This document shows positions 12,383 through 40,172 of a DNA stretch of 45,558 nt, one piece after another (the first letter of the stretch is position 1; every line of letters starts with the position of its first letter). Origin of the DNA: a virus. Under the pieces are notes generated by a model, which saw only the letters and a program-made list of their open reading frames with translations, made no database searches and was not told where the DNA came from. The DNA lies in IMG/VR virus record IMGVR_UViG_3300036900_000189, positions 1 to 45,558 of that record; one strand, 5' to 3'. The position numbers were made by a program, and so were the translations under genes.

Positions 12383-12395
12383 CGGACAACGCACC
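12383..12395 (-). promoter_or_regulatory. Late motif copy 6
   Basis: GGTGCGTTGTCCG on the minus strand, in the gap between the fibre-like gene (ends 12400) and the secreted-protein gene (starts 12325). It lacks one G of the six-copy consensus GGGTGCGTTGTCC(G). Confidence 0.55.
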
Positions 12396-12399
12396 GCTG

Positions 12400-13770
12400 T
12401 CAGAACGTCGAGATTGCAACCCGCTTCACGGTGTTGGTTGCCGTGCAGACATAGATGAAGCTGGCGTCGACGCTGATTTGACCTGCCGAACAAGTCTGAT
12501 TGTCAGCCCATGTTGCTTGAGGAATTCCGAGAACCCCGGAGCCGGTTATATTGATGTTACTTCCGACAAAGAGGGCTTTCGCTATGCCAACGCCCCCGGC
12601 AACGATCAGAGCTCCGGTCACTGAGCTGGACGAGTTCGTTCCAACATTTACGTTGACCTGCCCCTGCTGAATGGTCGTGCTCGAGGCGTTGATCTGGAAT
12701 GGCTCATAAGCATTATTGGCGTCATTGACGACGGAAACGTACATCCCAGAGTTGGCGCCAAGCCCACCGACAACAATGTTGTCATTGGTGCCCTGCTTCA
12801 GTCGAACCAGCTCACCATCCAACAGGGTCGCGGCCCCGACTGCAAAACCAGGCACGGACACATTTGCCGCTGCCGTCCAGTATGACGCCGTGGTAAAGTT
12901 GTAGTCCCACCATACAGCGCCAAGGCCATCAGCAAGAATAATCGCCCCGGTCAAATTAGACGGAAGCGGAGATGCGGAATGACCCCCATTGGCCACTGTA
13001 AGGCCGACCTGGGCCCCGAGTATCGTATTGTTTGAGCCTGTTGTAATACCGCGAGCAGTCGCATGCCCGACCGCGGTATTCGCCTGCCCAGTGGTTATGT
13101 CCCGGCCAGTGACATATCCAATTGCGGTGTTGAAATTTCCCCCATTCTGGGTGAATAGCGCATGGTCGCCGATAGCGATACTGAAGCGACCGGATGTCTC
13201 GCTAAATAGCGGGGTGACGCCAATACCTATGTTGGCGTTCCCAGATGTTATGTTGAAAAGTGCCTGATACCCGATGGCTACTCCACTCTCGTCAACGGTG
13301 GAGTTGTAGAGGGCCTGGAAGCCAATCGCCACACCCTTGCCGGCTGTAGTTTGACTGCGGAGGGCGTCCTGACCAATGGCGATGTTGTCGCTGCCGGTGG
13401 TGTTGCTCAGCAACGCATTAAGGCCAACCGCGATATTGTCGGAGCCGCTTCTGACTGGCATGGCCCCGGTACCGATGGCGACGTTACCGGTGGCATCAAA
13501 GAGAAATTGCCATTGTGCGGCCGTGGGGCCGGTCGTTACCGGCACATATCCGGCAGAAGGAACGCCGGAGATCGTGACGCCGCCCACAGCACCAATGTAG
13601 GGCGAGAGAGCCGAGCCAAGCTGGTTGAATGAAATTCCCTGAGCATTACCAGGGACAGGCGATATATTGCCGACAACTTCCCTACCCGCCAAGGGGATCG
13701 GAAACTGCTGAGCCCCGGCCAGTACAGGCCAGAGCAGCAGACCAATCAGGGCGGCGGCAATGCGCTTCAT
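12400..13770 (-). CDS. Tail-fibre-like protein with signal peptide and YadA-like repeats
   Basis: A 456-residue protein. Residues 1-21 are a Sec signal peptide (MKRIAAALIGLLLWPVLAGA). Residues 95-245 hold about ten short repeats of the type NxAIGxxAL (SDNIAVGLNALLSNTTGSDN), like the YadA/Hia head and Hep/Hag repeats of trimeric adhesins. Residues 250-456 are beta-rich and end in a small domain with two Cys. A trimeric fibre that binds the host or a surface adhesin is likely. The start at 13770 overlaps the preceding stop (TGATG). Confidence 0.7.
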   Translation of the reverse strand: MKRIAAALIGLLLWPVLAGAQQFPIPLAGREVVGNISPVPGNAQGISFNQLGSALSPYIGAVGGVTISGVPSAGYVPVTTGPTAAQWQFLFDATGNVAIGTGAMPVRSGSDNIAVGLNALLSNTTGSDNIAIGQDALRSQTTAGKGVAIGFQALYNSTVDESGVAIGYQALFNITSGNANIGIGVTPLFSETSGRFSIAIGDHALFTQNGGNFNTAIGYVTGRDITTGQANTAVGHATARGITTGSNNTILGAQVGLTVANGGHSASPLPSNLTGAIILADGLGAVWWDYNFTTASYWTAAANVSVPGFAVGAATLLDGELVRLKQGTNDNIVVGGLGANSGMYVSVVNDANNAYEPFQINASSTTIQQGQVNVNVGTNSSSSVTGALIVAGGVGIAKALFVGSNINITGSGVLGIPQATWADNQTCSAGQISVDASFIYVCTATNTVKRVAISTF

Positions 13771-14150
13771 CACTTGCCCAGCATTTTGGCTGCGGGGGCG
13801 ACGACCGCCGGGAACGGAAAGTTCTCGGCCATCACCCGGAGGATCAAGTCACGCTGCTTGGGCAACAACGGCCAGTCTGTAGCGCGGCGAACGCCATTGG
13901 CGAGATCATCGCGTTCAATCAGCTCATCAAGCGGCACCTTCGCCGGCGCACGCAGAGAGCGGAATGCGAACTCCCCGAGCGTGATAGGGGTCTCGCAGGG
14001 GCGTTTTCCGTCCTTGTCGACTGGACATTTCATGTCGTCGATTACTGTCGCACCGTCGCTCATGATGGGCTGCGTGAAATCGACCTTTCGCGTTTCCTCA
14101 GCAAATGCCGAGGTCGCCGCGAGAAGGCCAAGGATGAGAAAGCGCTTCAT
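13770..14150 (-). CDS. Secreted protein with signal peptide (126 aa)
   Basis: ATG at 14150 (MKRFLILGLLAATSAFAEET) gives a clear signal peptide cut after AFA. The mature part has two Cys in KCPVDKDGKRPCE and a helical C-terminal half. It lies between a lipoprotein and the fibre-like gene; it may be a periplasmic or virion-associated partner. I recall similar proteins in rhizobial phages but no function. Confidence 0.65.
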   Translation of the reverse strand: MKRFLILGLLAATSAFAEETRKVDFTQPIMSDGATVIDDMKCPVDKDGKRPCETPITLGEFAFRSLRAPAKVPLDELIERDDLANGVRRATDWPLLPKQRDLILRVMAENFPFPAVVAPAAKMLGK

Positions 14151-14152
14151 GG

Positions 14153-14473
14153 TCACTGTCCCTTCAGCCTGTCCGCGAGCGCCTTGGTCGCATCCCTGGT
14201 CGCATCGCTCAGCGCCTCGGCCTCGCGCCGACGAAGCTCAGCCAGGATGTCTGTGCAGTGCTCCCAGCCTGGAGCGTAGGACGCAGTTGGTATCCCACCG
14301 GGGGCCATGCTTCCTTGAGGGCGCGAGGCAGCCTGAAGGTGCTGGCTGCAAGTCTGCATGGCGCCGCGAAGCACGTCCGTGGACGGCGGCGCGAAAACAT
14401 CGAACTCCTGAGCCTGTCTCGTCTGTGCTGCGCAGGCGGTCATGAGAATCATGAGTGCAAGAACGGTCCTCAT
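14153..14473 (-). CDS. Small lipoprotein (106 aa)
   Basis: The start overlaps the preceding stop (ATGA at 14470-14473). MRTVLALMILMTACAAQ is a lipoprotein signal with lipobox MTAC (Cys15). The mature part contains two Cys and ends in a charged helix (LRRREAEALSDATRDATKAL). An outer spanin or a surface exclusion factor would fit; the distance from the other lysis genes argues against certainty. Confidence 0.65.
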   Translation of the reverse strand: MRTVLALMILMTACAAQTRQAQEFDVFAPPSTDVLRGAMQTCSQHLQAASRPQGSMAPGGIPTASYAPGWEHCTDILAELRRREAEALSDATRDATKALADRLKGQ

Positions 14474-15744
14474 GTGCAATTTGCTCCCTTGGTGGTGAGA
14501 ACACCGTTGGTGAATGTCAGGCTATTGCCGGCAGTCACGGTGCAAACCGTCGACACGCCGTTGATCCACGTCATCGGGCTGGTGCTGCCGCCGCCGGACG
14601 CGAGCACATTGCCGGCAGAACCGGCCGTAGCGGGGAGGTTGAAATTGTAGGTCGACGTCGTGCTTGGATTCTTGATGACGGCAAACGCGCCGCTTCCCCC
14701 GCCATTAGCCAGAGCCAGGGATGCGCCGTTGGATCCATTGATGCCAAGAGTCGCCGACCCCCCATTGGAGACAAGCGAAGAACCGGTCACCGCTCCGGCC
14801 GGGCTGATGCTCCAGTTCTGCCCGATCATGTCACTGGTGGAGGCGGTCAGCCCGCGGATGTCGACGCCGTAGGCAACCGGCACCGTCATCAGGGACTCGA
14901 GATGCACCCCGATGAAAGTGCCGGTGGAGGCGATCGGCACATAACCGTTGTCAAATTCCGCTGCGCAGAATCCGCACTTCCAGCCGGGACCGGGAGCGGA
15001 AGCCGCGCCATATGGAGTGGAGGCCCCCATGTAGAAGGCAAAGGCGATGTCAGCCGTGGTGCCGTTGTTGACGAACAGGCCTTCGACCGTATGACCAAGC
15101 TGGTACAGCTGGGTCGCGGCCGATGTGCCCCAGACGTCCGTCTCCTGTCCGGTCAGCTGCCTGGCTCCAGCCGCCGAACTGCGGACCTGCGGATTGGCGC
15201 CGAAATAGGTATCAATCGACGTTGCTGCGCCAGCGTTGATGACGACGACCGGCGCGATACCGGTGTAGGCCGGTAACGGATTAAGGCTGCTCGCCGGAGC
15301 GGTTTGCGTCAGAATGATGAGAGCACCGGTGCGCGTACCGGTTAGAGACGTCCCTCCGAAACTGTGATTGATGACGATGTCGTTGACGCCGAGACCGGCA
15401 GCAATCGTGTCGGAATTGACGTTAATGCAGAGACCAACGCATGCTTCGCCGAACGCCGCCGACCCACTCAAATCATGAGTCGTTGTAATCGCCGGGACTT
15501 GATTGGTCGGTCCAATCGCAATGCCCGCATTGAAGCTCTGTAGGGCCTGCCAGCTGTTGGACGTGTTCGCCAGATTTTGAATCAGCAGGCTAAAAGGGAT
15601 GACCTGCGCCGGACCCGGCCCAATTCCAGTGCGGCCCACCACGGTGTTGGCAGGCAACGTCTGCGGCAAAGTCGGGATTTGCGCCAGGGCTGGCACAGCG
15701 AGCGCGAGCAAGGTCGCGGCGATACCGAGTAGGCGCCTGATCAT
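14470..15744 (-). CDS. Tail-fibre/structural protein with signal peptide
   Basis: A 424-residue protein. ATG at 15744 gives the signal peptide IRRLLGIAATLLALAVPALA and lies 28 bases after the late motif, the same distance as two other motif-led genes; ATG at 15765 is in frame too. The N-terminal PTLPQTLPANTVVGRTGIG is typical of the start of phage tail-fibre-like proteins. The body is Gly/Ser/Thr-rich and beta-rich, ending with a repeated GSA-rich region. It probably forms part of a tail appendage. Confidence 0.65.
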   Translation of the reverse strand: MIRRLLGIAATLLALAVPALAQIPTLPQTLPANTVVGRTGIGPGPAQVIPFSLLIQNLANTSNSWQALQSFNAGIAIGPTNQVPAITTTHDLSGSAAFGEACVGLCINVNSDTIAAGLGVNDIVINHSFGGTSLTGTRTGALIILTQTAPASSLNPLPAYTGIAPVVVINAGAATSIDTYFGANPQVRSSAAGARQLTGQETDVWGTSAATQLYQLGHTVEGLFVNNGTTADIAFAFYMGASTPYGAASAPGPGWKCGFCAAEFDNGYVPIASTGTFIGVHLESLMTVPVAYGVDIRGLTASTSDMIGQNWSISPAGAVTGSSLVSNGGSATLGINGSNGASLALANGGGSGAFAVIKNPSTTSTYNFNLPATAGSAGNVLASGGGSTSPMTWINGVSTVCTVTAGNSLTFTNGVLTTKGANCT

Positions 15745-15772
15745 GCTCCCGGTATGAAAGGCCATCCCGTCT

Positions 15773-15786
15773 CGGACAACGCACCC
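15773..15786 (-). promoter_or_regulatory. Late motif copy 5
   Basis: GGGTGCGTTGTCCG on the minus strand, directly after the stop of the 1672-residue ejection protein gene and 28 bases before ATG 15744. Confidence 0.6.
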
Positions 15787-15787
15787 G

Positions 15788-22470: not shown

Positions 22471-22476
22471 GGTGCC

Positions 22477-22968: not shown

Positions 22969-22970
22969 CT

Positions 22971-26159: not shown

Positions 26160-26162
26160 CGG

Positions 26163-27473: not shown

Positions 27474-27501
27474 GGTCGCACCCTGCCGTCACGGGACGGG
27501 G

Positions 27502-27515
27502 CGGACAACGCACCC
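27502..27515 (-). promoter_or_regulatory. Late motif copy 4
   Basis: GGGTGCGTTGTCCG on the minus strand in the gap between the small signal-peptide protein gene and the adaptor gene, 28 bases before the adaptor ATG. Confidence 0.6.
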
Positions 27516-27524
27516 CCTGGCGCG

Positions 27525-28031
27525 CTACTTGTAATAGCCCCACATCACCACGCCCTGGCTGCCACCGGAGCCAGGCGCGGAGGACGTCATCAGAATCTGG
27601 GTGTTGACGGCGGAGGCCGGCAAGCAGGGCGAAAACAGCTGGCTATAGTGGCCTGAAATCGATCCATCTACTTTGCCGATCTGCTGGATATAAGAAAAGG
27701 TGCCTCCCAGCAAACCTGCAATCGAGTTGCCGCCCGTAGTCGACGCAGTTGCGACTGCGTCATCAATAAACCCGCACAGATATGCGGTCTTGAGAGCCAC
27801 GGCAGGAATGGCGACGGCGATCGACCCCGTCGTCCCGGAGCCGGAAGCAATTATCGGGGTTGACCCGGCCGGATACTGATCAGGGGCTACCGGCAGCGGG
27901 TTTGTCGAATTGACGGGATCACACTCCGCCGCAACCTGACTCGCCTCGGTACAGGGGGCGACCAGCGGGGCGGCAGCAGCCGCGTTGACGAACCACAGCG
28001 CCGCAAGCGCGGCAATCAGTATCCTCACCAT
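27525..28031 (-). CDS. Structural-region protein with signal peptide (168 aa)
   Basis: ATG at 28031 follows GGGAGAAATCCC. MVRILIAALAALWFVNAAAA is a Sec signal peptide. The mature protein has paired Cys (APCTEASQVAAEC, then LCGF and SPCLP) and a beta-rich C-terminal half ending GVVMWGYYK, which looks like a phage fibre or decoration domain. Why a virion-region protein should be exported is unclear. Confidence 0.6.
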   Translation of the reverse strand: MVRILIAALAALWFVNAAAAAPLVAPCTEASQVAAECDPVNSTNPLPVAPDQYPAGSTPIIASGSGTTGSIAVAIPAVALKTAYLCGFIDDAVATASTTGGNSIAGLLGGTFSYIQQIGKVDGSISGHYSQLFSPCLPASAVNTQILMTSSAPGSGGSQGVVMWGYYK

Positions 28032-28312
28032 GGGATTTCTCCCTGACTGCGCAGTAGGTCCTTGGCGACGTTGATGGCAGCGATGCGGGTCATGTCGGCT
28101 AGGGCGCGGGAGTCGGCGAGCGCCGAGGCGGCCGACTTCACGGCGGCGACGTAGGTCGCATTGCCTGTGGGGTCGCCTGGCTTGTAGCCAGCTACGCTCG
28201 CCGCAGCTGCGATCGTGGTCAGATGCGTGGTCACGGCCGCATCCTTGGTCGCCTGCGAGGTCTTGCCCGCCGCGGCAATCGAGGTGACCATGGTCTGCTG
28301 GTTCGACGACAT
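28025..28312 (-). CDS. Ala-rich helical protein (95 aa)
   Basis: The start overlaps the stop of the glycosyltransferase gene (TGATG). The protein is Ala/Thr-rich and helical (KDAAVTTHLTTIAAAASVAG). It lies in the virion cluster, so a minor structural role is possible. Function unknown. Confidence 0.6.
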   Translation of the reverse strand: MSSNQQTMVTSIAAAGKTSQATKDAAVTTHLTTIAAAASVAGYKPGDPTGNATYVAAVKSAASALADSRALADMTRIAAINVAKDLLRSQGEIPW

Positions 28313-29661: not shown

Positions 29662-29667
29662 TGGGCC

Positions 29668-29892
29668 TCACAACGGAGGGGCGGTCGTCAGGAGCTGGCC
29701 CTGTTCGAGCTGACGGATGGAGGCCTGGAGGAACAGGATGACGTCCTTGCGAGTGACGTTCTTCGACTGCGCGTCGGTCGTGTTGTAACGCAGCTCGAAG
29801 TCACCGGCCGACGGCGCGTTCGTTCCGGTCGTGAAATCGGAGAACTTGAAGCCCTCCGTTCCACGATTGAAGGTCCACGAGATTGCAGCCAT
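29668..29892 (-). CDS. Small structural-region protein (74 aa)
   Basis: A beta-rich 74-residue protein; FELRYNTTDAQSKNVTRKDV and a helical C-terminus. It lies just after the 213-residue protein gene in the capsid region. It may be a minor capsid or decoration protein; no known domain. Confidence 0.65.
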   Translation of the reverse strand: MAAISWTFNRGTEGFKFSDFTTGTNAPSAGDFELRYNTTDAQSKNVTRKDVILFLQASIRQLEQGQLLTTAPPL

Positions 29893-29901
29893 CGGCTATC
29901 C

Positions 29902-30543
29902 TCAGATCGCGTAGGTGACCTTGGCGTAGATGTTGCACGCCTGCGCGGTGCCGGCGGCGGTCGCGACGTACAGCAGCAGGTCGAAGTAGCCGTTCGGGTC
30001 GGCCGGATTGCCGCGGCCATCGACGAACCCGAAGGTCTGCCACAGCGGCTGCTGCGTGAGGCCGAGGAAGTTGTAGGTCGTCCCGATACCATTGAACACG
30101 AGATTGGTCGGGCCATAGGCCAGCGTGTTCGACGTCTCCAGGAACTGCCCATACATCTTATTCGGGCTGGAGTAGGTCGCGATCGTGGTGGTGGCGCCGG
30201 TGTTGCCGGTGGTCGGGATCAGACCCTGCAGGGAGGCCTGCGTGCCGTCGATCGTCGAGTCCGAGAAAATCCAGTTCAGGTCGAAGGCGATCAGCTTCGA
30301 GGCGCCGGAGTCCGGGGCCTTGTCGGTAGCGATCTCGACCGACTTGATGATCGCGCCGGTCGGGACGCGCACCAGCTTGTAGTAGCTGCCGGCGGTGCCG
30401 AGGCCCGCGGCGGTCGCGGCGACCCAATCGTCGACCTCGATCACGCGACCGGCGGCGCCCTGCCCGGCGCTGTTCGCGAGATAGGGCGGAGCCGTGTTGT
30501 CGAGGTTGGTGATCGACTGGGAGAGAACGGTATCCTTGGCCAT
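29902..30543 (-). CDS. Putative virion protein after the capsid gene (213 aa)
   Basis: A soluble beta-rich protein with the pattern typical of phage decoration or structural proteins (GSYYKLVRVPTGAIIKSVEI, FDLLLYVATAAGTAQA). It follows the major capsid gene by 12 bases. Its position favours a capsid decoration protein, but this is inferred. Confidence 0.65.
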   Translation of the reverse strand: MAKDTVLSQSITNLDNTAPPYLANSAGQGAAGRVIEVDDWVAATAAGLGTAGSYYKLVRVPTGAIIKSVEIATDKAPDSGASKLIAFDLNWIFSDSTIDGTQASLQGLIPTTGNTGATTTIATYSSPNKMYGQFLETSNTLAYGPTNLVFNGIGTTYNFLGLTQQPLWQTFGFVDGRGNPADPNGYFDLLLYVATAAGTAQACNIYAKVTYAI

Positions 30544-30555
30544 CGCGTCGGCTCC

Positions 30556-31491
30556 TTAAGGCGTAATGTCGGTGCCGCTCGTGTCCGAGCAGAGGATCGA
30601 CACCACCTTGCCGGCCTGCATGCGGACAGAGCCGACCATGGTCTGGATGAGAAGCTGGAGCGGCCGGCCCGACAGGTCGGGGCGGAACTCGGCGAAGGTC
30701 GTCATGTCCTTCCAGATGCCCATGTACATGCCGGACTTCACGAACACCGGCACGTTGCGGACGTTGGAAGTGACCGACAGGCGCTCGGACACGACGATGT
30801 CGATGCCGAGAATCTGGCGCACCCGGCCGCCCGAGACCTGCACACTCAGGCCGGACTGGAAGTCGGAGGAGACCACCTGGACCTGGTTGTAGAGATCGGA
30901 GTGCTGCTGCGATCCGATGATGGCGCAGGCCCGATCCATCTCGAGGTCGTTGTGGTAGTGCTCAAGGATGCGCTTCGCCTCGATCATCTTGGCGATCGTG
31001 AGGCCGGCCGCGGCGGAGGCACCGAACGTCGAGGCCACCTGGAAGTTGGTGGTCGAGAACGAGTCCGGCGTCAGGCTGCCGATGTCGGTACCGAGCTGGC
31101 GCGTCGCGAAGAACGCGGCGATCACGACGTCGTCGTAGTAGCGGTTGACCGCCGCCATGCCTGTCTGCACGTAGGGGCCCTGCGGATCGACGATGGTTTC
31201 GAGGCGATCGAACGAGTCGATCAGCATCGGAAGCTCGCCGGCCTGCGGGAACACCCACGGGCGCAAGGTATCGGGCTGGGTGTGGGTCATCGGCGCGAAG
31301 CGACCGGTCGGCTGCTTCATCACCACGGAACCGAACTGGTTCACGGGCGACGCCATCTTGCCGACGTGGCTGCCTTCGCGGACTTTGCCGCGGACCTTGG
31401 AATCGGTCTGCTGGAGGAGAAGCTCGACGTTCGCCGTGTATTCGGCGGTGAAGAGCGCGGTAAGGCCCTGGTTTTCGGTCAGGACGGCCAT
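30556..31491 (-). CDS. Major capsid protein
   Basis: A 311-residue protein directly after the scaffold gene. The N-terminus (TALFTAEYTANVELLLQQTD) and features such as VFVKSGMYMGIWKDMTTFAE and the VSERLSV...NVRNV region match podovirus HK97-fold major capsid proteins of similar length. It would form the icosahedral head. GAGG precedes the ATG; a 150-base leader with the late motif separates it from the scaffold gene, the longest gap in the structural cluster, as expected for a highly expressed gene. Confidence 0.85.
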   Translation of the reverse strand: MAVLTENQGLTALFTAEYTANVELLLQQTDSKVRGKVREGSHVGKMASPVNQFGSVVMKQPTGRFAPMTHTQPDTLRPWVFPQAGELPMLIDSFDRLETIVDPQGPYVQTGMAAVNRYYDDVVIAAFFATRQLGTDIGSLTPDSFSTTNFQVASTFGASAAAGLTIAKMIEAKRILEHYHNDLEMDRACAIIGSQQHSDLYNQVQVVSSDFQSGLSVQVSGGRVRQILGIDIVVSERLSVTSNVRNVPVFVKSGMYMGIWKDMTTFAEFRPDLSGRPLQLLIQTMVGSVRMQAGKVVSILCSDTSGTDITP

Positions 31492-31626
31492 ATGAACCTC
31501 GACAACGAGAGTTGCGGAAGCTCGCTACGGCTTGTCCGGCGCCAACCGGGGCCTCTTGCGATCAGTTCTGGCCTTGCCCAGCTACGGAGGCCCTATGCAC
31601 GCGAGAATGACGAAGCACCGGCCCGT

Positions 31627-31639
31627 CGACAACGCACCC
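31627..31639 (-). promoter_or_regulatory. Late motif copy 3
   Basis: GGGTGCGTTGTCG on the minus strand, 135 bases before the major capsid ATG, between scaffold and capsid genes. One change (final C missing) from the consensus. Confidence 0.6.
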
Positions 31640-31641
31640 GG

Positions 31642-32517
31642 TCAGGCCGCGTACTCGGATTGCCCGGTTGCCACCTGGATGAGCTTCTTCCACTCGGTTT
31701 GCTCGGCGACCCCGCCGGCCTTCCAGCGCTGACCCCAGGCGGTATCCTTCTTGAGCTCCTCCATGCGCGCCTTGGCGGCCTCGCGGCTCATCTGGTCCGG
31801 ATTGGCCGGCTGCTTCATGTCGACCCAGCGGTCCTCGCTCATGCGAGTGCCGAGCACGTCGAGCAGCTCCATGAAGCTCGCGGCACCGACGCCGCCGAGA
31901 TGGGAGATCGCGTCGATCGCCTCAGTAGCCTTGACCGCGTCCATGCCGGCAGCGGTCGCCCACTTGTTGAAGGTGCGCTTGGCTTCGGCGACCTTGGTGT
32001 CGTAATTCGGGCCCCAATTCTTCTTGAGCGCCGCGACCTGCTCGTTGGTGCGGGTGGTGGCAAGCGTCTTCCTCTCGGCCTCTATCCCGTCGAGGTACTT
32101 CTGCACCGCACCGGTGATAGAGGCGACGGCCTCCTTCGGCGCGCGCGACGAGATCGCGGCCGCGGCAATGGCCTCGGTCATCTTGACATCGAGCGCCTCG
32201 CCGGCGGCGGTCTTGATGCCGGAGAAGTCTAGATCCTTCGCCTCCTTCGGCGCACCTAGCCGCTGCCAGAATGCGTCGATCTCGGCGGGCTGGGCATTCG
32301 CTTGCGGCATACGTAGAAGCTGATCCTGCGGCACTCCCAGCTTGCCCTCTGCCTTGCGATAGTGGTCGGTAAGCTGTTGGGCAAACGCGCCGGGCTCCTT
32401 GAAGTCGTAGCCCTTGCTTTCCCACCACCCCTTCACATCGGGCGGAACGTTCTGATGCCAAACGGGCGCGGTCGCCGTGGTCGTATCCGCGACGGTCGTC
32501 GTCGTGGTGTCAGTCAT
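31642..32517 (-). CDS. Scaffolding protein
   Basis: A 291-residue, highly charged helical protein directly before the capsid gene. It begins with a Thr-rich tail (MTDTTTTTVADTTTATAP), then WWESKGYDFKEPGAFAQQLT, a segment typical of podovirus scaffold/capsid assembly proteins, and has heptad-like helices (KWATAAGMDAVKATEAIDAI). ATG at 32517 overlaps the preceding stop (ATGA). It would direct procapsid assembly and leave before DNA packaging. Confidence 0.8.
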   Translation of the reverse strand: MTDTTTTTVADTTTATAPVWHQNVPPDVKGWWESKGYDFKEPGAFAQQLTDHYRKAEGKLGVPQDQLLRMPQANAQPAEIDAFWQRLGAPKEAKDLDFSGIKTAAGEALDVKMTEAIAAAAISSRAPKEAVASITGAVQKYLDGIEAERKTLATTRTNEQVAALKKNWGPNYDTKVAEAKRTFNKWATAAGMDAVKATEAIDAISHLGGVGAASFMELLDVLGTRMSEDRWVDMKQPANPDQMSREAAKARMEELKKDTAWGQRWKAGGVAEQTEWKKLIQVATGQSEYAA

Positions 32518-32789
32518 TGATCGTCTCCTATGACGGCCGCCCCATAGAGAGCGGCCAGCTCGTGTTCGCTGAGATGCAGATGCGCGAAAATGCGCCAGAA
32601 GGCTTCCTTGCGGCCGGCCATCAACAGGGTGCGATCGTGGTCGCCGCACTCGACCTCGCCGCCGAAGGCCCGGCAGAACGTCGCCAAATCCTTGAGCACG
32701 ATGTCGCGCGCCGGCCCGGCCGGGAACACCGCCTGATAGGCGCGCTTGCGGATGGCAAGCTTCTGGATGGCGGCAGGAAGAAACCTCAT
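32514..32789 (-). CDS. Bbp19-like phage protein (91 aa)
   Basis: The segment YQAVFPAGPARDIVLKDLAT with CRAFGG and DRTLLMAGRKEAFWRIFAHL matches the Bbp19 family found between portal and scaffold genes in podoviruses. Exact function unknown; probably virion assembly. Confidence 0.75.
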   Translation of the reverse strand: MRFLPAAIQKLAIRKRAYQAVFPAGPARDIVLKDLATFCRAFGGEVECGDHDRTLLMAGRKEAFWRIFAHLHLSEHELAALYGAAVIGDDQ

Positions 32790-33229
32790 GCCGCCACCAC
32801 CTTCCTGCCGAGATGATCAACGCGAAGGTCGGCGACGACCCAGCGCTTGACGGCCCCGGTGAGCTCGACGCGTTCCTTGTCGTTGAGCTTGAGCTCGTCG
32901 GCGAGATCGCGGAACGCCTTGATCAGTTCGTGCTCGTGGTCGTAAACGATGACCCATTCAGGAACATCACTGCCCGACTTAATCAGCCGACAAGCTACCT
33001 TGCCGTTCTTGAGTACGTTCGCCCCACCGATGAAAAACGGCCGCGTGATGTCGGTGAAACCGGAATAGATGAGCTGCAGCAGCACCGGCATAGCACGGCC
33101 GTAGCTGTGCCACATGACGGCATGCACGACGTTCCAGAACTTGTCGTCCTTCGCCGCATGCAGGCAGCGCGCCTGCCACGACGAGCGGATGTCCTTCGAC
33201 AGCAGGAGCATCGAGAGGTCGTCGGTCAT
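32786..33229 (-). CDS. Hypothetical protein downstream of portal (147 aa)
   Basis: A 147-residue soluble protein with 4-base overlaps to portal and Bbp19-like genes. No known domain. Position suggests a head assembly role. Function unknown. Confidence 0.65.
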   Translation of the reverse strand: MTDDLSMLLLSKDIRSSWQARCLHAAKDDKFWNVVHAVMWHSYGRAMPVLLQLIYSGFTDITRPFFIGGANVLKNGKVACRLIKSGSDVPEWVIVYDHEHELIKAFRDLADELKLNDKERVELTGAVKRWVVADLRVDHLGRKVVAA

Positions 33230-34962
33230 TGCACGGCTCCGGGCTGACCGACGGCGGACTTCGCGGCGACAGCCTGCGCTTTCAGCATCGCGGCCTGCGC
33301 CGGCAGGGCCTGCAGCTGCTGCTCGCGGGCCTGCGCCTCACCGCGCGCCTTGCGCTTCGCCGCGATGGTGCGCTGGTCGGCGGTGTAGCGCACCGGCACG
33401 TTCATGCTGACCGCAACATCGGGCGCGGCCTCCTCCATGTTGACGTAGTCGAGCCAGCTCGGGTCCTGCGTGTCGGCGGCGAGCTGACGCAGCGAATCGG
33501 TCCAGCGCATGAAGCCGGCGACCTCGTTTGCGCGGGCAAGCTTCGCCAGCGGCGACTTGTCGACGACGCGGAAGCGAATGCCGGCCTCGCGCAGCACCGG
33601 CGGCGGCGGCGGGATGAGACCAAGATCGGCGGCGAGATCGAATTCCCGATGCACAAGCGACGTGACCTTCTCGTCGTGCTGGCGGCCGAGCGTCGGGGCG
33701 ATCAGCATCCCGCGCTCGTTCGCGAGCTCCAGGACCTGGGTCGCGGTCATGTTGGGGTTTTCAACCAGCGTCTTGTAGATCGACACGAACATGGTGTCAT
33801 CGACGATGCCGCGCTCCTCCTGCATCATCTCGATGGCGACCTGCATGTTGCCGGTGGGAAGCGTGTGCACCAGCGCCTTGCCGTCGGGCGACACGGCGCC
33901 CTTGTTCATCGCGCCCGGGCGGAGGTCCATGCCGACCATGCCGTCGTCCGCGGTGAGCAGCACCGGATCGGCGTTGCGGTGGGCCTGCTTGAGGTAGGTC
34001 ACCTTCTGCGCGTTGAGCGTCTTGAGCGCCGGCAGGACGAGCTGCACCGGCCCGCGGCCGTAGACCTCGCCCGGCGTCTGGTCGTATCGGCTCGGCGAGA
34101 ACGGGAAACGCCGATAGCCCGACTCGGGCGCCATGAGGCACTTACCCTGGATCGAGACGTAGTAGCTCTCGAACCGCTTGCCTCGCGCATCGAGCCGCTC
34201 GGGGTCATAGTCTTCACCACGCGGCTTCACGCAATGCAGGAAGTCGTAGGGCGTTTCCTGGTTCTGTTCGAGCGCGGTGCGGCATACCGCGGGCAGCGCG
34301 GCGATGCCCCACTTCTGAACCGCCTGGCGGGCCGTGCCGCGGAACCAGCGAACGATGGTGTCGATCTGGCCTTGATGGTTCTCGCCGAAGAAGGTTTCAC
34401 CGAGCGGCAGGGTGCGATAGCGCAACCCGCGCTGCCCATCGTTGAAGCGCGGATCGAGCGCGTCGACGAACATCGTCGAGTTGCCGAAGCACCCGATGGA
34501 CTGCCAGGAGTTATAGTTCTGGCCGGTGAAGCCTGAGTTCTGCGCGTAGCGGAGATCGAACAGGATGTCGTTGACCTGCTCGAACCACAGCGAGACCTGC
34601 CGGTTCTTGTTGAGGTCGCGATTCTCGTGCTCCAGCCCGTGCCACTTCTGAACCTTGGGCGTGACGAGAGAATCGACAATGGCGCAGAACCGGTGCAACG
34701 CCAGCATGCCGGAGGCGTCGACCTGCTCCTGCGTCTTCTTCTGGCCGGGGAAATTGTAGCTGCCGTAGTAGAACGTGTTCTTCGAGGTCGGCAGCACGAG
34801 GCGGGCGGCCTCCTCCCACTGCCCGGCGAACACGCTGCGGTAGACCTGCAGTTCGGAGAACAGCTGCATGGTCTCCTGGACCTGCTCCTGCTCCCACTGC
34901 GGGATTTCGCGCGGCTTGGTCGCGGCGTATCGTCCGTCAGCCGCCAAAGCCCGCGGCTCCAT
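33226..34962 (-). CDS. Portal (head-tail connector) protein
   Basis: A 578-residue protein of the podovirus head-to-tail connector family (PF12236). Typical features: early WEEAARLVLPTS, CAIVDSLVTPKVQKWHGLE, WFEQVNDILFDLRY, the mid SIGCFGNSTMFVD, and the GPVQLVLPALKTLN stretch near the middle. The last 40 residues are Ala/Gln-rich helix. It forms the dodecameric ring through which DNA is packed. The ATG lies 26 bases inside the preceding small gene. Confidence 0.92.
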   Translation of the reverse strand: MEPRALAADGRYAATKPREIPQWEQEQVQETMQLFSELQVYRSVFAGQWEEAARLVLPTSKNTFYYGSYNFPGQKKTQEQVDASGMLALHRFCAIVDSLVTPKVQKWHGLEHENRDLNKNRQVSLWFEQVNDILFDLRYAQNSGFTGQNYNSWQSIGCFGNSTMFVDALDPRFNDGQRGLRYRTLPLGETFFGENHQGQIDTIVRWFRGTARQAVQKWGIAALPAVCRTALEQNQETPYDFLHCVKPRGEDYDPERLDARGKRFESYYVSIQGKCLMAPESGYRRFPFSPSRYDQTPGEVYGRGPVQLVLPALKTLNAQKVTYLKQAHRNADPVLLTADDGMVGMDLRPGAMNKGAVSPDGKALVHTLPTGNMQVAIEMMQEERGIVDDTMFVSIYKTLVENPNMTATQVLELANERGMLIAPTLGRQHDEKVTSLVHREFDLAADLGLIPPPPPVLREAGIRFRVVDKSPLAKLARANEVAGFMRWTDSLRQLAADTQDPSWLDYVNMEEAAPDVAVSMNVPVRYTADQRTIAAKRKARGEAQAREQQLQALPAQAAMLKAQAVAAKSAVGQPGAVQ

Positions 34963-35137
34963 AGCCGGGGTTCAGAAACGTCGAGGCTCCGGGCATTCCC
35001 ATACCGGAGCGCTGGCCGAGCGACATCGCCTGCATCCGACGCTTGCGCTCCTCGTCGGTCTCCTGCTTGACCTGATCCGGCAGGCCGAGGAAGGACGAGG
35101 CGCCCGGCACCGGCATGTTGCCGAAGTCGAGGGGCAT
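34937..35137 (-). CDS. Small virion-region protein (66 aa)
   Basis: The start overlaps the stop of the 100-residue protein gene (TGATG). The words PVPGASSFLGLP and GMPGASTFLNPG are an internal repeat at both ends of a charged helix. It lies before portal, where T7-like phages keep small head proteins. Function unknown. Confidence 0.6.
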   Translation of the reverse strand: MPLDFGNMPVPGASSFLGLPDQVKQETDEERKRRMQAMSLGQRSGMGMPGASTFLNPGYGAAGFGG

Positions 35138-35439
35138 CAGGTTTCCTTCTTGCGGGCCTGGAATTCCTTCCAGAGGCGATCGTAGGTTCCTGGCTCCTCG
35201 AAGCCCTCCTTTTCGGCCTGCCGCAACGCCTTCCAGTGATTGGGCGTTTCGCGACCGCGCGTGCCGATGCCCTGCTCGATCGGGCGACCCTTGTTGTCTT
35301 TCTTGTGGTCGACGCCGAAAACGCTGTTTTCCAGCGTGGTCTTGTAACGATCGTAATCGGCCGGGCCCCATCCGACCCTCTCGCCCTCGGTGTAGTTCAA
35401 GGGGATTCCGGGGTTCGAGCCGCTGCTGACGAAATCCAT
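35137..35439 (-). CDS. Hypothetical protein (100 aa)
   Basis: A charged 100-residue protein ending in ARKKET. The N-terminus has FVSSGSNPGIPLNYTEGERV. It is the first gene after large terminase and follows a 123-base gap with the late motif and a hairpin. Function unknown. Confidence 0.6.
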   Translation of the reverse strand: MDFVSSGSNPGIPLNYTEGERVGWGPADYDRYKTTLENSVFGVDHKKDNKGRPIEQGIGTRGRETPNHWKALRQAEKEGFEEPGTYDRLWKEFQARKKET

Positions 35440-35457
35440 GTCTCACCCATGAGAAGG

Positions 35458-35488
35458 GGCCGGGATCGCCGCGAGGGCGGCCCCGGCC
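35458..35488. other. Strong hairpin in the gap before portal genes
   Basis: Stem GGCCGGG / CCCGGCC (35458-35464, 35482-35488), an internal AT/GC mismatch, then CGCC/GGCG, loop GCGAG. On the minus strand no T-run follows, so it may be an RNA processing or attenuation hairpin between large terminase and the structural genes. Confidence 0.5.
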
Positions 35489-35547
35489 AAGTTTGGGAGA
35501 ACACCCAGAGGCATCCACGATGGGGAGGATGACGGCGCGGAACGGGG

Positions 35548-35561
35548 CGGACAACGCACCC
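35548..35561 (-). promoter_or_regulatory. Late motif copy 2
   Basis: GGGTGCGTTGTCCG on the minus strand directly after the large terminase stop, 108 bases before the next ATG (35439). Confidence 0.6.
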
Positions 35562-35562
35562 G

Positions 35563-37080
35563 CTAGAACAACGGGAAGTCCACGTTGGCAGCCAGGCTGC
35601 CATTCGTGCCGGTGCGGCGCGCGGCGTAGCCGGTAAAATCCAGCTGCGCCTTGGCGTAGCGGATATCCATGCACAGCACGCGGACCGCGGAGAGCAGGTC
35701 GTCGTCGACCTTGTTCACCAGCCCGTTGACGCTGTGATAGCCCTGATATTCGTCGAACGCTTCGATCAGGTGGTCGGCGATGACGAGGCGCTTGGTGGCG
35801 AACCGGTTGCGCATCTCGTCGATGCCGGCCTGGAAATTGAACCCGCCGGTTGGGAACGTCGCATGCGTGCCGCGCAGGTTCAGGCCCAGCTTGCGGTAAG
35901 TCGCCGCCACAGTCTCACCGGTAAGGAGGCCGGCGCCGCGGCCTCCGTCGTGGGGCCAGGCGACGGGGGCTTCCCACATGGGATGCTGCTTAATGGCAGC
36001 CACGTGAAGGGGAGCCAGACCAAGCATGCGCACTGCATGCACAACGTAGATCGTGTCCGTGTCCATATCTCGGCATCCGAGCACGGCAGCAAAGGGGTGA
36101 CCTGTAGCCGCTGACCCGGAGTGTCGAAAATCCAGGGCCCACATCCATCGCCAATAGGGCGGGAAGGTCGAGGGGTCCTGTCGGAACTTGATTCTTTCGA
36201 CCGGCACATCGAACACGGCTCCTTCGCCCTGCATGTCGGCGCCGTTGAGGCGCGTCTCGCGTTCATTCTCGGGGTATTGCGCCATCAGTTCGTCGAGACG
36301 CTCGTCCGGGATATGGCCGCCGGCGCTGACGAGACAGTCGCGGATGCCCATCTGCACCTCGGCGGTGCCGGGGGTCTTCTCGCGGAAGCGGCGCCTGATC
36401 TCGCTGCCGCCGCCGAGAAGTGGGGTCATGCTGGCGATGATGATGCCGTTGGTGGCAGTGAGGCGAGCGAGCAGCTCGGAATAGATGCCGGCATTGCCGG
36501 GATCCTCGTCGACCCAGCCGACGTCGACAGGCTCGCCCTGCCAGCCCTCGCGGCCCATTTCATATGTCTTGAGCCGGATGATGGCGTTGCCGCCGGTCTC
36601 GCGGCGCAGCTTCACGGTGTCGACGTATTCGCCGATGCCGCGCGCCATGGTGGGCGTGCCGACGATGTTGTCGAGGGGGATGAGGCCGGTGCCGAGCCCG
36701 CCGGCATCCTTCACCGGGCCGAGCAGCTTCTGCTGAATGCCTTCGCGGGTCTTGAGCTGGGTGGTGCAGCCCGCCCAACCGATGAACTCGTAGGGCCGCT
36801 CGATCGCCGGCGGCTTGATGAAGCGGCGGCCGGTGTACCAGTCGGGATAGAGCGCGATCGCATCCATCGCCATCTGCGCGCCGGCGCCGTGCGTCTTGCC
36901 GACCTGGTTTCCGGCACGCAACATCTTTTCACGTGAAACGAGGTTGTGGAATTCGAGCTGCTTGCGGTTCGGCTTATAGAAATCGATGCGGCGATATTTC
37001 TGCCGGTACTGCAGCTCGTTGTACATGCGCTTCGCATGCCGGCGCACGTCGTTCGGGTCGGGGCCGGGGGTGTCGGTCAT
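35563..37080 (-). CDS. terL: Terminase large subunit
   Basis: A 505-residue DNA-packaging motor. Residues 33-50 (DFYKPNRKQLEFHNLVSR) hold the adenine-binding part, 57-63 the Walker A GNQVGKT, 187-194 the Walker B VGWVDEDP, and about 213-222 the coupling motif IIIASMTPLL. The C-terminal half is the RNase H-like nuclease, beginning at WALDFRHSGS. ATG at 37080 overlaps the previous stop (ATGA). It packs the genome through the portal and cuts it. Confidence 0.92.
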   Translation of the reverse strand: MTDTPGPDPNDVRRHAKRMYNELQYRQKYRRIDFYKPNRKQLEFHNLVSREKMLRAGNQVGKTHGAGAQMAMDAIALYPDWYTGRRFIKPPAIERPYEFIGWAGCTTQLKTREGIQQKLLGPVKDAGGLGTGLIPLDNIVGTPTMARGIGEYVDTVKLRRETGGNAIIRLKTYEMGREGWQGEPVDVGWVDEDPGNAGIYSELLARLTATNGIIIASMTPLLGGGSEIRRRFREKTPGTAEVQMGIRDCLVSAGGHIPDERLDELMAQYPENERETRLNGADMQGEGAVFDVPVERIKFRQDPSTFPPYWRWMWALDFRHSGSAATGHPFAAVLGCRDMDTDTIYVVHAVRMLGLAPLHVAAIKQHPMWEAPVAWPHDGGRGAGLLTGETVAATYRKLGLNLRGTHATFPTGGFNFQAGIDEMRNRFATKRLVIADHLIEAFDEYQGYHSVNGLVNKVDDDLLSAVRVLCMDIRYAKAQLDFTGYAARRTGTNGSLAANVDFPLF

Positions 37081-37442
37081 TTGTTTTTCCAATCGCCCCG
37101 ATAGTAATTTTCCGCCTCCTGCCATAGCGGATGTTCTTTATCGCGGCGAAGCGTCCTCGCTGTGCGATTAAGCGCGCCCCTAACTCTCATCCACGACACT
37201 CCAAGAAGCCTCGCCAATTCAGCGTGGGATGGCTTTCCTTCTGCTAACCACCGCTCAAAAATATCCAACCTAGCTCGTTCCTGCTCTTGCCGTATCTGCT
37301 CGATTGTCTTCTTGTTCGGATCAATGATTTTCGGCTTTTTAGGAGGAATGCGCGAACGCAGCGCCTCCTTGGCCACAGCCACCGGATCATCGGCCCCTGA
37401 CGCGATGGCCTCCAGGGCGGCCTTGTACCTGGCAAAAGTCAT
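37077..37442 (-). CDS. HTH protein upstream of large terminase (121 aa)
   Basis: ATG at 37442 overlaps the previous stop (ATGA). Residues 70-105 form an HTH (SHAELARLLGVSWMRVRGAL) with a basic C-terminus. Such a protein right before terL could be taken as small terminase, but the protein at 39217 fits that better. It might be a homing- or packaging-related DNA-binding protein. Function unknown. Confidence 0.6.
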   Translation of the reverse strand: MTFARYKAALEAIASGADDPVAVAKEALRSRIPPKKPKIIDPNKKTIEQIRQEQERARLDIFERWLAEGKPSHAELARLLGVSWMRVRGALNRTARTLRRDKEHPLWQEAENYYRGDWKNK

Positions 37443-38098
37443 GCGGCCTCCGGCAACATCCCGAGAATGGCGCGGCGCCGCTCCAACTCGTCGGGATCTA
37501 GGCAGTGCTGCCAATTGAAGACGCCGTGGAATCCGAAGTGGCGGCTGTTTTCTGCCGGCCTGGTCCGCTCGAGCGAGAATAGCATTGCCAGATCAAACGG
37601 CGCCCACTTGAAGCCGCACAGCTCGAGGCGTGGTCGGTAGAGGCGGCACAGAACATTATCACCGGGCTCCCGCACCGGCATCCAGTAGGCATTGCGCGCG
37701 ACATGCTGAATCAACTCACGAGAGCGCAGGGAAAATCCACCATTCCCCACATTCAGCACGGGATACCACCACCAGGGGGCGCCCACATAATCATATGCAA
37801 GGTAATCGGCCCGCCAATGAGAGGGACACCAAACCCCGGCGTCCCATTCCACGAAGAGCATGTGCGAAGTTCGGACATGCTTGGGCGTCTCGTACCAGAA
37901 CTGACGTTCCCAACCAATTTTGTCCGGCGCATCTTCAATGGCAACCCAGCGGGCTCCGGGTATGCGTAGATTGCGGTCGGACAGAACCACGACATCCCCA
38001 AACTCCACTTTCCGCAAAGCATCGAGCGCCACCAGCCGCGCTATCTCATGGCGCCGGGTCTCCACCATGACGAGGGTGACATCAGGGAGGCGGAGCAT
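37439..38098 (-). CDS. DUF5672-like putative glycosyltransferase
   Basis: A 219-residue protein. Signature segments: WDAGVWCPSHWRADYLAYDY, VGAPWWWYPVLNVGNGGFSL and HFGFHGVFNW, as in DUF5672 proteins, which have a glycosyltransferase-like fold (an aspartate in the WDAGVW motif, and NGGFSLR as acceptor motif). ATG at 38098 is used; GTG at 38110 is an alternative. It lies among accessory genes between terminase subunits. Sugar and acceptor unknown. Confidence 0.75.
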   Translation of the reverse strand: MLRLPDVTLVMVETRRHEIARLVALDALRKVEFGDVVVLSDRNLRIPGARWVAIEDAPDKIGWERQFWYETPKHVRTSHMLFVEWDAGVWCPSHWRADYLAYDYVGAPWWWYPVLNVGNGGFSLRSRELIQHVARNAYWMPVREPGDNVLCRLYRPRLELCGFKWAPFDLAMLFSLERTRPAENSRHFGFHGVFNWQHCLDPDELERRRAILGMLPEAA

Positions 38099-38264
38099 TT
38101 GAGACGGCACTCATCGAGTCGGCAATGCGCTCAACCGCCGTGACGAAACGATCAAGAAAGTCGAGCATCATCAACTGTTCGGTGCGCTGGCGAATTTGAT
38201 AATCCATATCCTTTAGCTTTTTGCGCTCGGCCTTCCTGGCCTCATACTGCTGCTTTGGCGTCAT
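38082..38264 (-). CDS. Small helical protein (60 aa)
   Basis: ATG at 38264 follows GGAGAGGGGC. Charged coiled-coil-like helix (YEARKAERKKLKDMDYQIRQ) followed by a second helix. It overlaps the formyltransferase end (23 bases) and the DUF5672 start. Function unknown. Confidence 0.6.
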   Translation of the reverse strand: MTPKQQYEARKAERKKLKDMDYQIRQRTEQLMMLDFLDRFVTAVERIADSMSAVSNAPPP

Positions 38265-38934
38265 GCCCCTCTCCACAGTAAGCAAACCGATGACCGTGCA
38301 CGTAGACGTACGGGCCGGGGAAGCGGGGGTGCTTGGCGGCGCGGACCTTGCGGTTGAGCTCGTCCTGATCGTTCAGGTCACGAACAATCAACCATTCTTC
38401 AAATCCACGCCGGGTCATGGGGGTGCCCCATTGCAGGCCCTGATGGGTTAACGGCCAGCCGATCTCACCAGTATTCGCAAAACGGCCAACAATTCGTTCC
38501 AGCATCATCAAGCAGAACTGCTCTGCCCTTTGATAGATATCGGCACAGGTATCTTCGTCATTGAGATGGAACGTGCACCTGTCGACGATTTCTCCGGCAT
38601 CCACCTTAGCGGCGATCAAATGGGCGGTAGCGCCGAAGGTTCCATCACCATTATACAACGCCCGCGATGCCCCTCCCCGGCCGGGGTAGCGGGGTGGTGC
38701 GGGGTGAAAGTTCACACCCCGAAATTTCAATAATGGACCGCGAAGAATAAAGTCCTGCAAGAAGCTGATCACGAGGTCGGGGTTGCGAGCGGCAAGCTCT
38801 TCCTCGTCAACTTCAAAAGAGGGCGACCGAACCCTGATAGCCAGTAAATCCAAGTGCTCTTCACAGATATCAACGGCACCCTTGTTGAGCTCCTGGCTGC
38901 TCCGCAGCAGCAGCACGCAGGTGCGCTTATTCAT
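38242..38934 (-). CDS. Formyltransferase-family protein
   Basis: A 230-residue protein with the formyl_trans_N fold. The catalytic triad Asn-His-Asp is present: N75 and H77 in VNFHPAPPRYPGRGGA and D112 in AKVDAGEIVD. Motif GTFGATAHLI is also as in the family. Members transfer a formyl group from 10-formyl-THF to methionyl-tRNA, glycinamide ribotide or amino sugars. The length (no full C-terminal domain) is closer to the sugar N-formyltransferases. Next to a DUF5672 gene, an amino-sugar acceptor is plausible. The C-terminal 60 residues are unlike those of Fmt. Confidence 0.75.
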   Translation of the reverse strand: MNKRTCVLLLRSSQELNKGAVDICEEHLDLLAIRVRSPSFEVDEEELAARNPDLVISFLQDFILRGPLLKFRGVNFHPAPPRYPGRGGASRALYNGDGTFGATAHLIAAKVDAGEIVDRCTFHLNDEDTCADIYQRAEQFCLMMLERIVGRFANTGEIGWPLTHQGLQWGTPMTRRGFEEWLIVRDLNDQDELNRKVRAAKHPRFPGPYVYVHGHRFAYCGEGHDAKAAV

Positions 38935-38952
38935 GACAGGGCCTCCCGTTAT

Positions 38953-39156
38953 TCATGAGAGCGCCTCCCGCACAAGCTCTCCCGGAAAAACCTCCGTCGA
39001 CAGCCACTTCCCGTTCGGCAGCATTGCGACAATGACGCAGGCCAGCGCAGGGTCCTTCGTCGGCTGGCGATCGATGTCGAACATGTTGGTTACCGGCAAC
39101 CGGCCGTAGGGCCCGACGAAGACAATTCCCTCAACGTCGAAGACGGGCGCAGTCAT
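38953..39156 (-). CDS. Hypothetical protein (67 aa)
   Basis: ATG at 39156 overlaps the stop of the 25-residue frame (ATGA). Beta-rich 67-residue protein with no known motif (DVEGIVFVGPYGRLPVTNMF). Function unknown. Confidence 0.6.
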   Translation of the reverse strand: MTAPVFDVEGIVFVGPYGRLPVTNMFDIDRQPTKDPALACVIVAMLPNGKWLSTEVFPGELVREALS

Positions 39157-39230
39157 CGCCATTTGACCAGATACGACCCAAAGAAAACGATGATCACGAT
39201 CGCCGCGATGACAACATCAGGATGATTCAT
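39153..39230 (-). CDS. 25-aa membrane miniprotein
   Basis: Single hydrophobic segment VVIAAIVIIVFFGSYLV with polar ends; start inside the end of the small terminase gene, stop in a 4-base overlap with the next start. Real by coupling and composition; function unknown. Confidence 0.45.
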   Translation of the reverse strand: MNHPDVVIAAIVIIVFFGSYLVKWR

Positions 39231-39798
39231 TCGCCGGCTCCGGGGTTGCATCGATCACCGGGCCGGTCCCGGCAATCAGCTTGGGTTGCTTCTCCGCCAG
39301 CATCTTGCGATATCGGCTGAGTCCGCTGTGGCCGAACACCTCCTCGAGCTTCGCCTCGGAAGCGCCCATCTCCATCAGGATCCGCAGATCGTTCAGCGCT
39401 GCATCAGTGTGGTTGACCGCCACCTCGCCGCTGACATTGACGTCGACGCCACTGCGCTCGCCGAGGCCAAGCCTTGACAGGACCGTGGCTGCCGTCTTGA
39501 GGTAATCGGGATGATCTGACTTGCCGAGAATGGTCCGGATAGCCACCACCGCCGGCAACAGAAGCCCACGGAATTCCTTGCGGCCAACCTCGTCGATCGC
39601 CTCCAGAACCCGCTCGCGATGCATCAGCGCATGAGCCTGCACCCTGATCGCAGAGCTATCGCCACCTGGATCAGAATACCCGGCCTGACGCGCCGCTTCC
39701 GATGCGCTCTCACCGCCGGCCACATACGCCAGAACGAACTTCCGCTCCCGCTCCGAGCAGGCCAGCATCTTCGGGCCGTACTCGATGTCGGAGGTCAA
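39217..39798 (-). CDS. terS: Terminase small subunit
   Basis: A 193-residue protein. Residues 15-65 (KFVLAYVAGGESASEAARQA, then SAIRVQAHALMHRERVLEAI) are the typical HTH of phage small terminases, which bind the packaging site and hand DNA to the large subunit. The C-terminal part is helical and acidic. It is separated from the large subunit by about 2.1 kb of accessory genes. Confidence 0.85.
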   Translation of the reverse strand: MTSDIEYGPKMLACSERERKFVLAYVAGGESASEAARQAGYSDPGGDSSAIRVQAHALMHRERVLEAIDEVGRKEFRGLLLPAVVAIRTILGKSDHPDYLKTAATVLSRLGLGERSGVDVNVSGEVAVNHTDAALNDLRILMEMGASEAKLEEVFGHSGLSRYRKMLAEKQPKLIAGTGPVIDATPEPANESS

Positions 39799-40130
39799 TA
39801 GAACCTCCGAACCGGAACACCAGCAGCGGCGGCCTTGGCGACCATGTCCTCCGTTCCCGAACCCCCAGGGAAGGCGGCGACCAAATCAGGTCTGCCCTCC
39901 GAAAGCATAAAAGAATTCCGAAGAGGACCGCCCTTACGACCAAGTCTCCAATTTGCCGGGAACGTGACTACGGGGATGCCGCGGGTCTCAGCCCACTTAA
40001 TCGCAAGCCGATCAGCACCAGAAGCGCCACCCTGCATCAGGACTCTGATTTCAGCCTTCAGCGGGTCAAGCGCAGCCGTCAGCGCGCTCCACTGCTCAAA
40101 ATTTCGACCACCGCAAACGAGAAGCCTCAT
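39795..40130 (-). CDS. YspA/DUF2493-like SLOG protein
   Basis: A 111-residue protein. Motifs CGGRNF (residues 6-11), GGASGADRLAIKWA (34-47), FPANWRLGRKGGPLRNSFML and FPGGSGTEDMV are those of DUF2493/YspA, a SLOG-fold group thought to bind nucleotide-derived ligands. Common in phages; role unknown. It is the first gene of the late operon, 28 bases after the first late motif. Confidence 0.85.
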   Translation of the reverse strand: MRLLVCGGRNFEQWSALTAALDPLKAEIRVLMQGGASGADRLAIKWAETRGIPVVTFPANWRLGRKGGPLRNSFMLSEGRPDLVAAFPGGSGTEDMVAKAAAAGVPVRRFY

Positions 40131-40158
40131 ACCGCTATCTGGACTAACGCGTTATGGT

Positions 40159-40172
40159 CGGACAACGCACCC
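40159..40172 (-). promoter_or_regulatory. Late motif copy 1
   Basis: GGGTGCGTTGTCCG on the minus strand, 28 bases before the ATG of the first late gene (40130). Being at the head of the whole late operon, this copy is the best place to expect promoter activity. Confidence 0.65.

Follow-up and report, generated by a model that had tools for sequence, protein, structure and literature searches.

Late-operon gaps of a temperate podovirus

The stretch analyzed here is IMG/VR virus record IMGVR_UViG_3300036900_000189 over its full 45,558 nt (the window). This 45.6-kb record belongs to a temperate podovirus: it encodes an integrase, and its virion genes (for portal, capsid, tail, and internal virion proteins) are those of a podovirus. 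Neither an INPHARED megablast for near-identical phages nor an Rfam scan of the window returned a match. Our subject is a short oriented motif in the gaps of its late operon, which we interpret as one half of a late promoter, together with a phage protein, E, that is a candidate for reading it.

Six copies of the 11-mer GGTGCGTTGTC lie on the minus strand of the window (5' bases at 40171, 35560, 31638, 27514, 15785, and 12395) and none on the plus strand, with a chance count of ~0.014 + 0.017 (~0.03 in total) under a first-order model. All six fall within late-operon gaps, five of them only 1–9 nt past the stop codon of the upstream gene, and a scan of both strands found no copy in the early regions. 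Four copies contain the exact 13-mer GGGTGCGTTGTCC (40160–40172, 35549–35561, 27503–27515, and 15774–15786), and the other two differ from it by one mismatch, at the final G in 31627–31639 and at the initial C in 12384–12396. The initial annotation had reported six oriented copies in the late-operon gaps and none in the early regions, and both statements hold. Five of its six coordinates were off by one, and two of the six copies are one base away from the 13-mer. A distance of 28 bases from motif to ATG, noted there for three cases, is found at 40160, 27503, and 15774, where the ATG stands 32 nt past the core 8-mer GTGCGTTG.

Read as putative promoters, all on the minus strand, the six sites can be described part by part. 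Late promoter 1, at the first late gene and TerS block, has its extended -35, GGGTGCGTTG(TCC), at 40163–40172, in the same place as in relatives; a weak -10-like hexamer, CCAGAT (40137–40142), follows after a 17-nt spacer, and 6 nt further on is the ATG at 40130–40128, predicted to be leaderless. A palindrome, TAACGCGTTA, lies inside this promoter at 40145–40154. Promoter 2, between TerL and the portal block, combines an extended -35 at 35552–35561 (its counterpart in the relative L005 is GGTGCATTG) with the -10-like hexamer CATCCT at 35526–35531, leaving a predicted leader of ~80 nt to the ATG at 35439. Ahead of the major capsid gene, promoter 3 has its extended -35 at 31630–31639, its -10-like hexamer CATTCT at 31604–31609, and a predicted leader of ~105 nt to the capsid ATG at 31491. 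Promoter 4 precedes the tail gene at 26163–27473 (extended -35 at 27506–27515; CAGGGT at 27480–27485), with 6 nt to the ATG at 27473, again predicted to be leaderless. Promoter 5, before a secreted or tail protein gene (extended -35 at 15777–15786; CATACC at 15751–15756), likewise has 6 nt to an ATG, at 15744. This gene had been called at 14470–15765 (-), and its true start is probably 15744 rather than 15765, a predicted leaderless ATG followed by a signal peptide. Finally, promoter 6, before the gene at 11888–12325, has the extended -35 GGTGCGTTG(TCC) at 12387–12395, a weak -10-like sequence, GTAGGTC, at 12360–12366, and a predicted leader of ~29 nt to the ATG at 12325.

Of the six window copies, five carry A at position 2 and/or T at position 6 in the hexamer 17 nt on (the sixth copy, at 12384, reads GTAGGT there, with T at position 6 only). 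The earlier view that the sites have no clear -10 thus does not stand, given a fixed -10-like hexamer downstream both in these five copies and in the alignment of relatives described below.

Conservation of motif and second box

Among 94 related viral contigs obtained from portal searches (1.06 Mb in total), the core 8-mer occurs 116 times on the portal (late) strand vs 12 times on the other (binomial p 1.6e-22). In whole relatives the sites lie before TerS or the first late gene, in the TerL–portal gap, and before capsid, tail, and fibre or later genes, so the motif search in related phages that the initial annotation had proposed finds copies kept before the same genes. An ungapped alignment of 125 non-redundant sites from 42 related contigs is conserved from position -1 to about +10, reading G GTGCGTTG (C/T)TG, with the spacer and upstream sequence unconserved. 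A second box, (c/t)AnnnT, appears 16–18 nt past TTGnnn. The pattern NANNNT is found at a spacer of 17 in 56 sites, 16 in 25, and 18 in 14, with only 0–9 sites at other offsets, and altogether 93 of the 125 sites have a second box at a spacer of 16–18. Where an upstream stop codon was identified (75 of the 125 sites), it mostly lies 0–10 nt ahead of the motif.

The spacing of the two boxes fits a sigma70-family holoenzyme, and the geometry is of sigma70 type. The boxes themselves, a -35 of TTG(C/T)(T/C)G within GTGCGTTG and a -10 that is mostly CANNNT, are poor matches to TTGACA and TATAAT, and a scan of 27400–40300 with these consensus sequences recovered none of the motif sites. From the conservation, the second box, and the spacing, we consider it very probable that each motif copy is the extended -35 half of a late promoter.

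The motif varies between phages. In L005 (69% portal identity) the variant GGTGCATTG stands immediately after the TerL stop, and G005 and L048 have the variant GTACGTTG. Bases flanking the core are uniform within a genome and different between genomes (0/600 permutations). The nearest named relatives (BcepC6B, BUCT708, and MW202898) lack the motif or have it at chance level, so it is no general feature of this virion lineage. Motif discovery, run on the motif-less G003, G008, and G010–G012 and on L043 and L058, returned nothing solid. A TAAC(N0-3)GTTA palindrome lies between motif and start codon in 11 first-late promoters (that of the window and those of 10 other phages) and is rare elsewhere in those 11 genomes; its probable role is that of an operator or a terminase site.

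Searches beyond the portal relatives gave similar results. The full pattern at the predicted spacing was found in 17 stretches of a collection of 2.9 million viral contigs, vs none with a spacer shorter by 5 nt, and the exact window variant (TCCG) of the pattern occurred nowhere else in that collection. Six contigs retrieved by the full pattern have 40 copies on the late strand vs 6 on the other. Among 26 intergenic sites held out of the query, the second box is present at 18, and 12 are followed by an ATG at 28–36 nt. Three phages of 45–50 kb (G033, G034, and G035; L165–L173) have the same promoters and an E homolog with no match to the portal, capsid, or terminase of the window, so simple co-inheritance with the virion genes does not account for the promoters. 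Dozens of soil phages, some related to the window and some not, have the motif together with one small DNA-binding protein that is its probable reader.

Predicted leaderless starts

An ATG lies 31–34 nt past the core at 52 of the 125 sites, with peaks at 31 (15 sites), 32 (28), and 33 nt (7). In the 31–33-nt class the ATG is 6 nt past the -10-like box, where transcription is predicted to start. Mean Shine-Dalgarno energy was -1.4 kcal for the 52 genes at 31–34 nt, -2.8 kcal for random sequence, and -5.6 kcal for other late genes, a contrast that is somewhat inflated because the control comes from a gene caller favoring Shine-Dalgarno starts. Genes 60–260 nt downstream of the motif have normal Shine-Dalgarno sequences (mean -5.8 kcal). 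In view of the bias of the gene caller, the start of the tail gene was checked directly. In motif-bearing phages the predicted ATG is where its N-termini (DI.NRALQH) line up, and in the motif-less G008, G010, and G011 a Shine-Dalgarno-like sequence is present at the same start.

We regard leaderless starts in the 31–33-nt class as distinctly likely. At about four in ten promoters the predicted transcription start falls on the A of the ATG, and the remainder would produce leaders with normal Shine-Dalgarno sequences. Leaderless mRNAs are established in alphaproteobacteria, with 171 starts mapped in Sinorhizobium meliloti (PMC3616915).

Protein E as candidate reader of the motif

E is a 194-aa protein, predicted to be an XRE-like helix-turn-helix (HTH) protein with a basic C-terminal helix, encoded at 42225–42809 (-) by the last early-operon gene on the late strand, and is a candidate late activator. 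Its gene is placed just ahead of the first late promoter(s). Clustering of open reading frames (ORFs) from 13 whole genomes singled out E as the sole non-structural family present in all eight motif-bearing and none of the five motif-less genomes, a split confirmed by a profile check (Fisher p 0.0008, uncorrected for ancestry). All four complete contigs retrieved by the DNA motif alone encode E, and in three of these the virion module is a different one. A search with the E protein alone led to contig L185/G041, whose motif sites are split ten to one between the strands, and to Microcystis phage Mwe-JY08 (PP395640.1; L186/L187), with seven late-strand copies vs one and two perfect predicted leaderless promoters at 25515 and 36826.

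Structure prediction for E (AlphaFold pLDDT 81.5) gives a putative XRE/HipB-like HTH with a long basic helix after it, and Foldseek gave a best E of 0.1 with a probability of 0.98–0.99 and a target TM of 0.58–0.72 for the top matches. A Pfam search of E found no domain. Lys55 in the predicted HTH is 96% conserved. A single-protein scan for further E relatives recovered only the query itself, and the E relative A3 is too divergent for scanning. An E-like HTH protein on a Xanthobacter plasmid was set aside for its different genomic context. The HTH protein at 41792, previously put forward as a possible reader, belongs to no family in common with motif-bearing relatives, and E fits much better. 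We lean toward E as the protein that reads the motif, with considerable doubt.

Other transcription machinery was also sought. For a single-subunit RNA polymerase (PF00940), a search that had no working control gave no match, and the two ORFs that exceed 600 aa in a good coding context both belong to the virion gene set. A T7-type promoter served by such a polymerase was rejected on this result and on the unconserved, variable spacer between the boxes. No sigma region 2 or 4 domain reached the cut-off, the one sub-threshold match being in the motif-less G003 only, and a regulon of a phage-encoded sigma factor was likewise set aside.

Proposed mechanism and alternative explanations

We hypothesize a promoter layout of GGTGCGTTG(C/T)(T/C)G-N(~17)-(c/t)AnnnT-N6-start, at which transcription would begin late in infection. 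Because both boxes match TTGACA/TATAAT poorly and no phage sigma or polymerase was found, we infer that a phage protein reading GTGCGTTG over the -35 box directs host RNA polymerase to these sites, with the host enzyme doing the work. E, whose gene closes the early operon, would be the best candidate for that protein and would bind the motif. What the sequences themselves show is the motif and how it is conserved, the second box, the ATG spacing, the lack of Shine-Dalgarno sequences in the leaderless class, and the shared occurrence of motif and E. As a whole, the explanation that these are late promoters, many of them leaderless, read by a phage protein for which E is the best candidate has in our estimate a probability of roughly three in four.

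The chief alternative keeps the bipartite promoters and assigns them to another factor, either a phage protein that went unrecognized or, on the host side, an alternative sigma factor or an activator. The link between E and the DNA is drawn from co-occurrence and position, E proteins are divergent (only ~20–35% identical) although the core is nearly invariant, L043 and L058 encode E homologs without a recognizable motif, and the incomplete G037 has the motif with no E detected. These observations weigh against our explanation, as do the weak -10 at window promoters 1 and 6 and the bias in the Shine-Dalgarno control. Speaking for E over another reader are its unique distribution across the whole genomes, the genome-specific flanks, which point to a reader differing from phage to phage, the lack of a sigma-factor domain at the cut-off, and the co-occurrence of E and motif outside this virion lineage. 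A different reader is possible but in our judgment unlikely.

A second alternative likens the copies to the stoperators of cluster A mycobacteriophages. On this view they are repressor sites, asymmetric 13-mers of set orientation located in gaps, at which a prophage repressor halts elongation. Size, asymmetry, orientation, and gap location all agree with this (PMC9283540), and E too has a predicted N-terminal HTH plus a second part. However, a stoperator needs neither a -10 at fixed spacing nor a fixed distance to ATG, both of which are strong here, and the Shine-Dalgarno sequence is missing from flanking genes only where the ATG falls at the predicted start. Moreover, a repressor has to act in the early region, which has no copy, and E is encoded at the end of the lytic early operon, outside the immunity region. 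We find this explanation improbable.

Action at the RNA level, as a processing site or as a translation signal in place of Shine-Dalgarno, is more doubtful still. It would account for the fixed ATG distance and for the absence of Shine-Dalgarno at about four in ten sites, and the start-associated sequences of cluster K phages are likewise 13-bp, asymmetric, and mostly in one orientation (PMC3203893). Those sequences, however, lie 3–7 nt from the ATG, not 32, and the second box here keeps its spacing even when the ATG is 60–190 nt off and has a Shine-Dalgarno sequence. The idea that the copies are short common sequences retained for phage–phage recombination can practically be dismissed, since their position at module borders and in phages with different virion modules leaves the -10-like box, the ATG spacing, and the missing Shine-Dalgarno unexplained, and the flanking DNA is not common to the phages; exchange may be a side effect. 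Of the three options first raised for the motif, then, the late promoter is favored by the conserved sites, the -10-like box, and the fixed start-codon distance, and RNA processing and module exchange are not.

Host, context, and significance

Prophage scans of genome contigs for a host found no relatives. The only pointer was TerL (36%), which led to Sinorhizobium and Pseudochrobactrum; the Pseudochrobactrum prophage also has early genes in common with the window. A protein with a DnaA C-terminal domain (44476–45144, -) and a DUF1376 protein (42994–43674, -) form a pair that also occurs in a Pseudochrobactrum prophage with a related TerL, which hints at a host among the Hyphomicrobiales. Mwe-JY08 is listed with Microcystis as its host, a label to be treated with caution, since its 65.7% GC, DUF1376, DUF2312, LexA-like protein, and E homolog resemble those of alphaproteobacterial phages. 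At 3090–3587 (+) the window also encodes an end-protection protein of the Mu Gam type; the integrase of this phage is a tyrosine integrase. The motif-less, E-less relatives G008 (L129–L131), G011 (L126–L128), and G012 (L132–L134) have a separate non-structural gene set of their own in common, so late control seems to have undergone replacement as a unit.

A literature search for a described equivalent of this late promoter system found none in the papers covered. It is an evenly balanced question whether we are looking at a previously undescribed late regulon of unrelated temperate phages (probably of Alphaproteobacteria), in which a single small XRE-like protein would read the asymmetric GTGCGTTG replacing the -35 and activate 6–10 late promoters, many of them giving leaderless mRNAs of virion genes, with promoters and regulator moving jointly among phages whose virions differ. 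From DNA alone, the sequence rule would indicate where late transcription begins and which start codons are used, and would point to a probable master regulator, in many uncultured soil phages. Leaderless translation may extend to whole blocks of virion genes, and late expression could couple to a Shine-Dalgarno-independent mode of the ribosome. Phages that differ in their capsids have both the promoter set and the regulator, so the two together could form a late switch that is transferable. Mwe-JY08, a named and deposited phage, carries the system, making direct tests possible.

Comparison with known systems

A close architectural likeness is to phage Mu, whose late promoters (Plys, PI, PP, and Pmom) are several per phage, have non-consensus -10 and -35 boxes, and use host RNA polymerase (PMC4461284). 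The Mu activator C is a phage HTH protein that binds at or next to the -35 (PMC4461284), and E is a candidate for a like role. C sites are described upstream of the -35, whereas the motif here covers the -35 and lacks palindromic symmetry. The late promoters of Mu number four, fewer than the sites here, many of which are predicted to give leaderless mRNAs; the likeness drawn is one of architecture. Mu is not known to have a leaderless late class.

The Caulobacter gene transfer agent (GTA) promoter with GafY/GafZ resembles the present case in being a phage-derived late cluster in an alphaproteobacterium, where activation comes from a phage-type protein that contacts host RpoD (PMC11150451). That system has one promoter with a distant upstream site, IHF, and antitermination, in contrast to the 6–10 short promoters with an element on the -35 proposed here. 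The GTA promoter also starts transcription ~250 nt ahead of the start codon, unlike the leaderless class (PMC11150451).

Cluster A stoperators are similarly ~13-bp asymmetric oriented sites dispersed in gaps (PMC9283540), but they are repressor sites found genome-wide, whereas the motif is late-only and half of a putative bipartite promoter. Cluster K start-associated sequences are also 13-bp asymmetric sites ahead of selected starts (PMC3203893); they stand 3–7 nt from the start codon, and the motif 32 nt away with a -10-like partner. In the leaderless genes of S. meliloti transcription starts on the AUG, as mapped there and predicted here (PMC3616915), although those are scattered host genes under host promoters and these would form a dedicated late regulon. 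The gene for E, at the end of the early operon, holds the position of Q in lambda.

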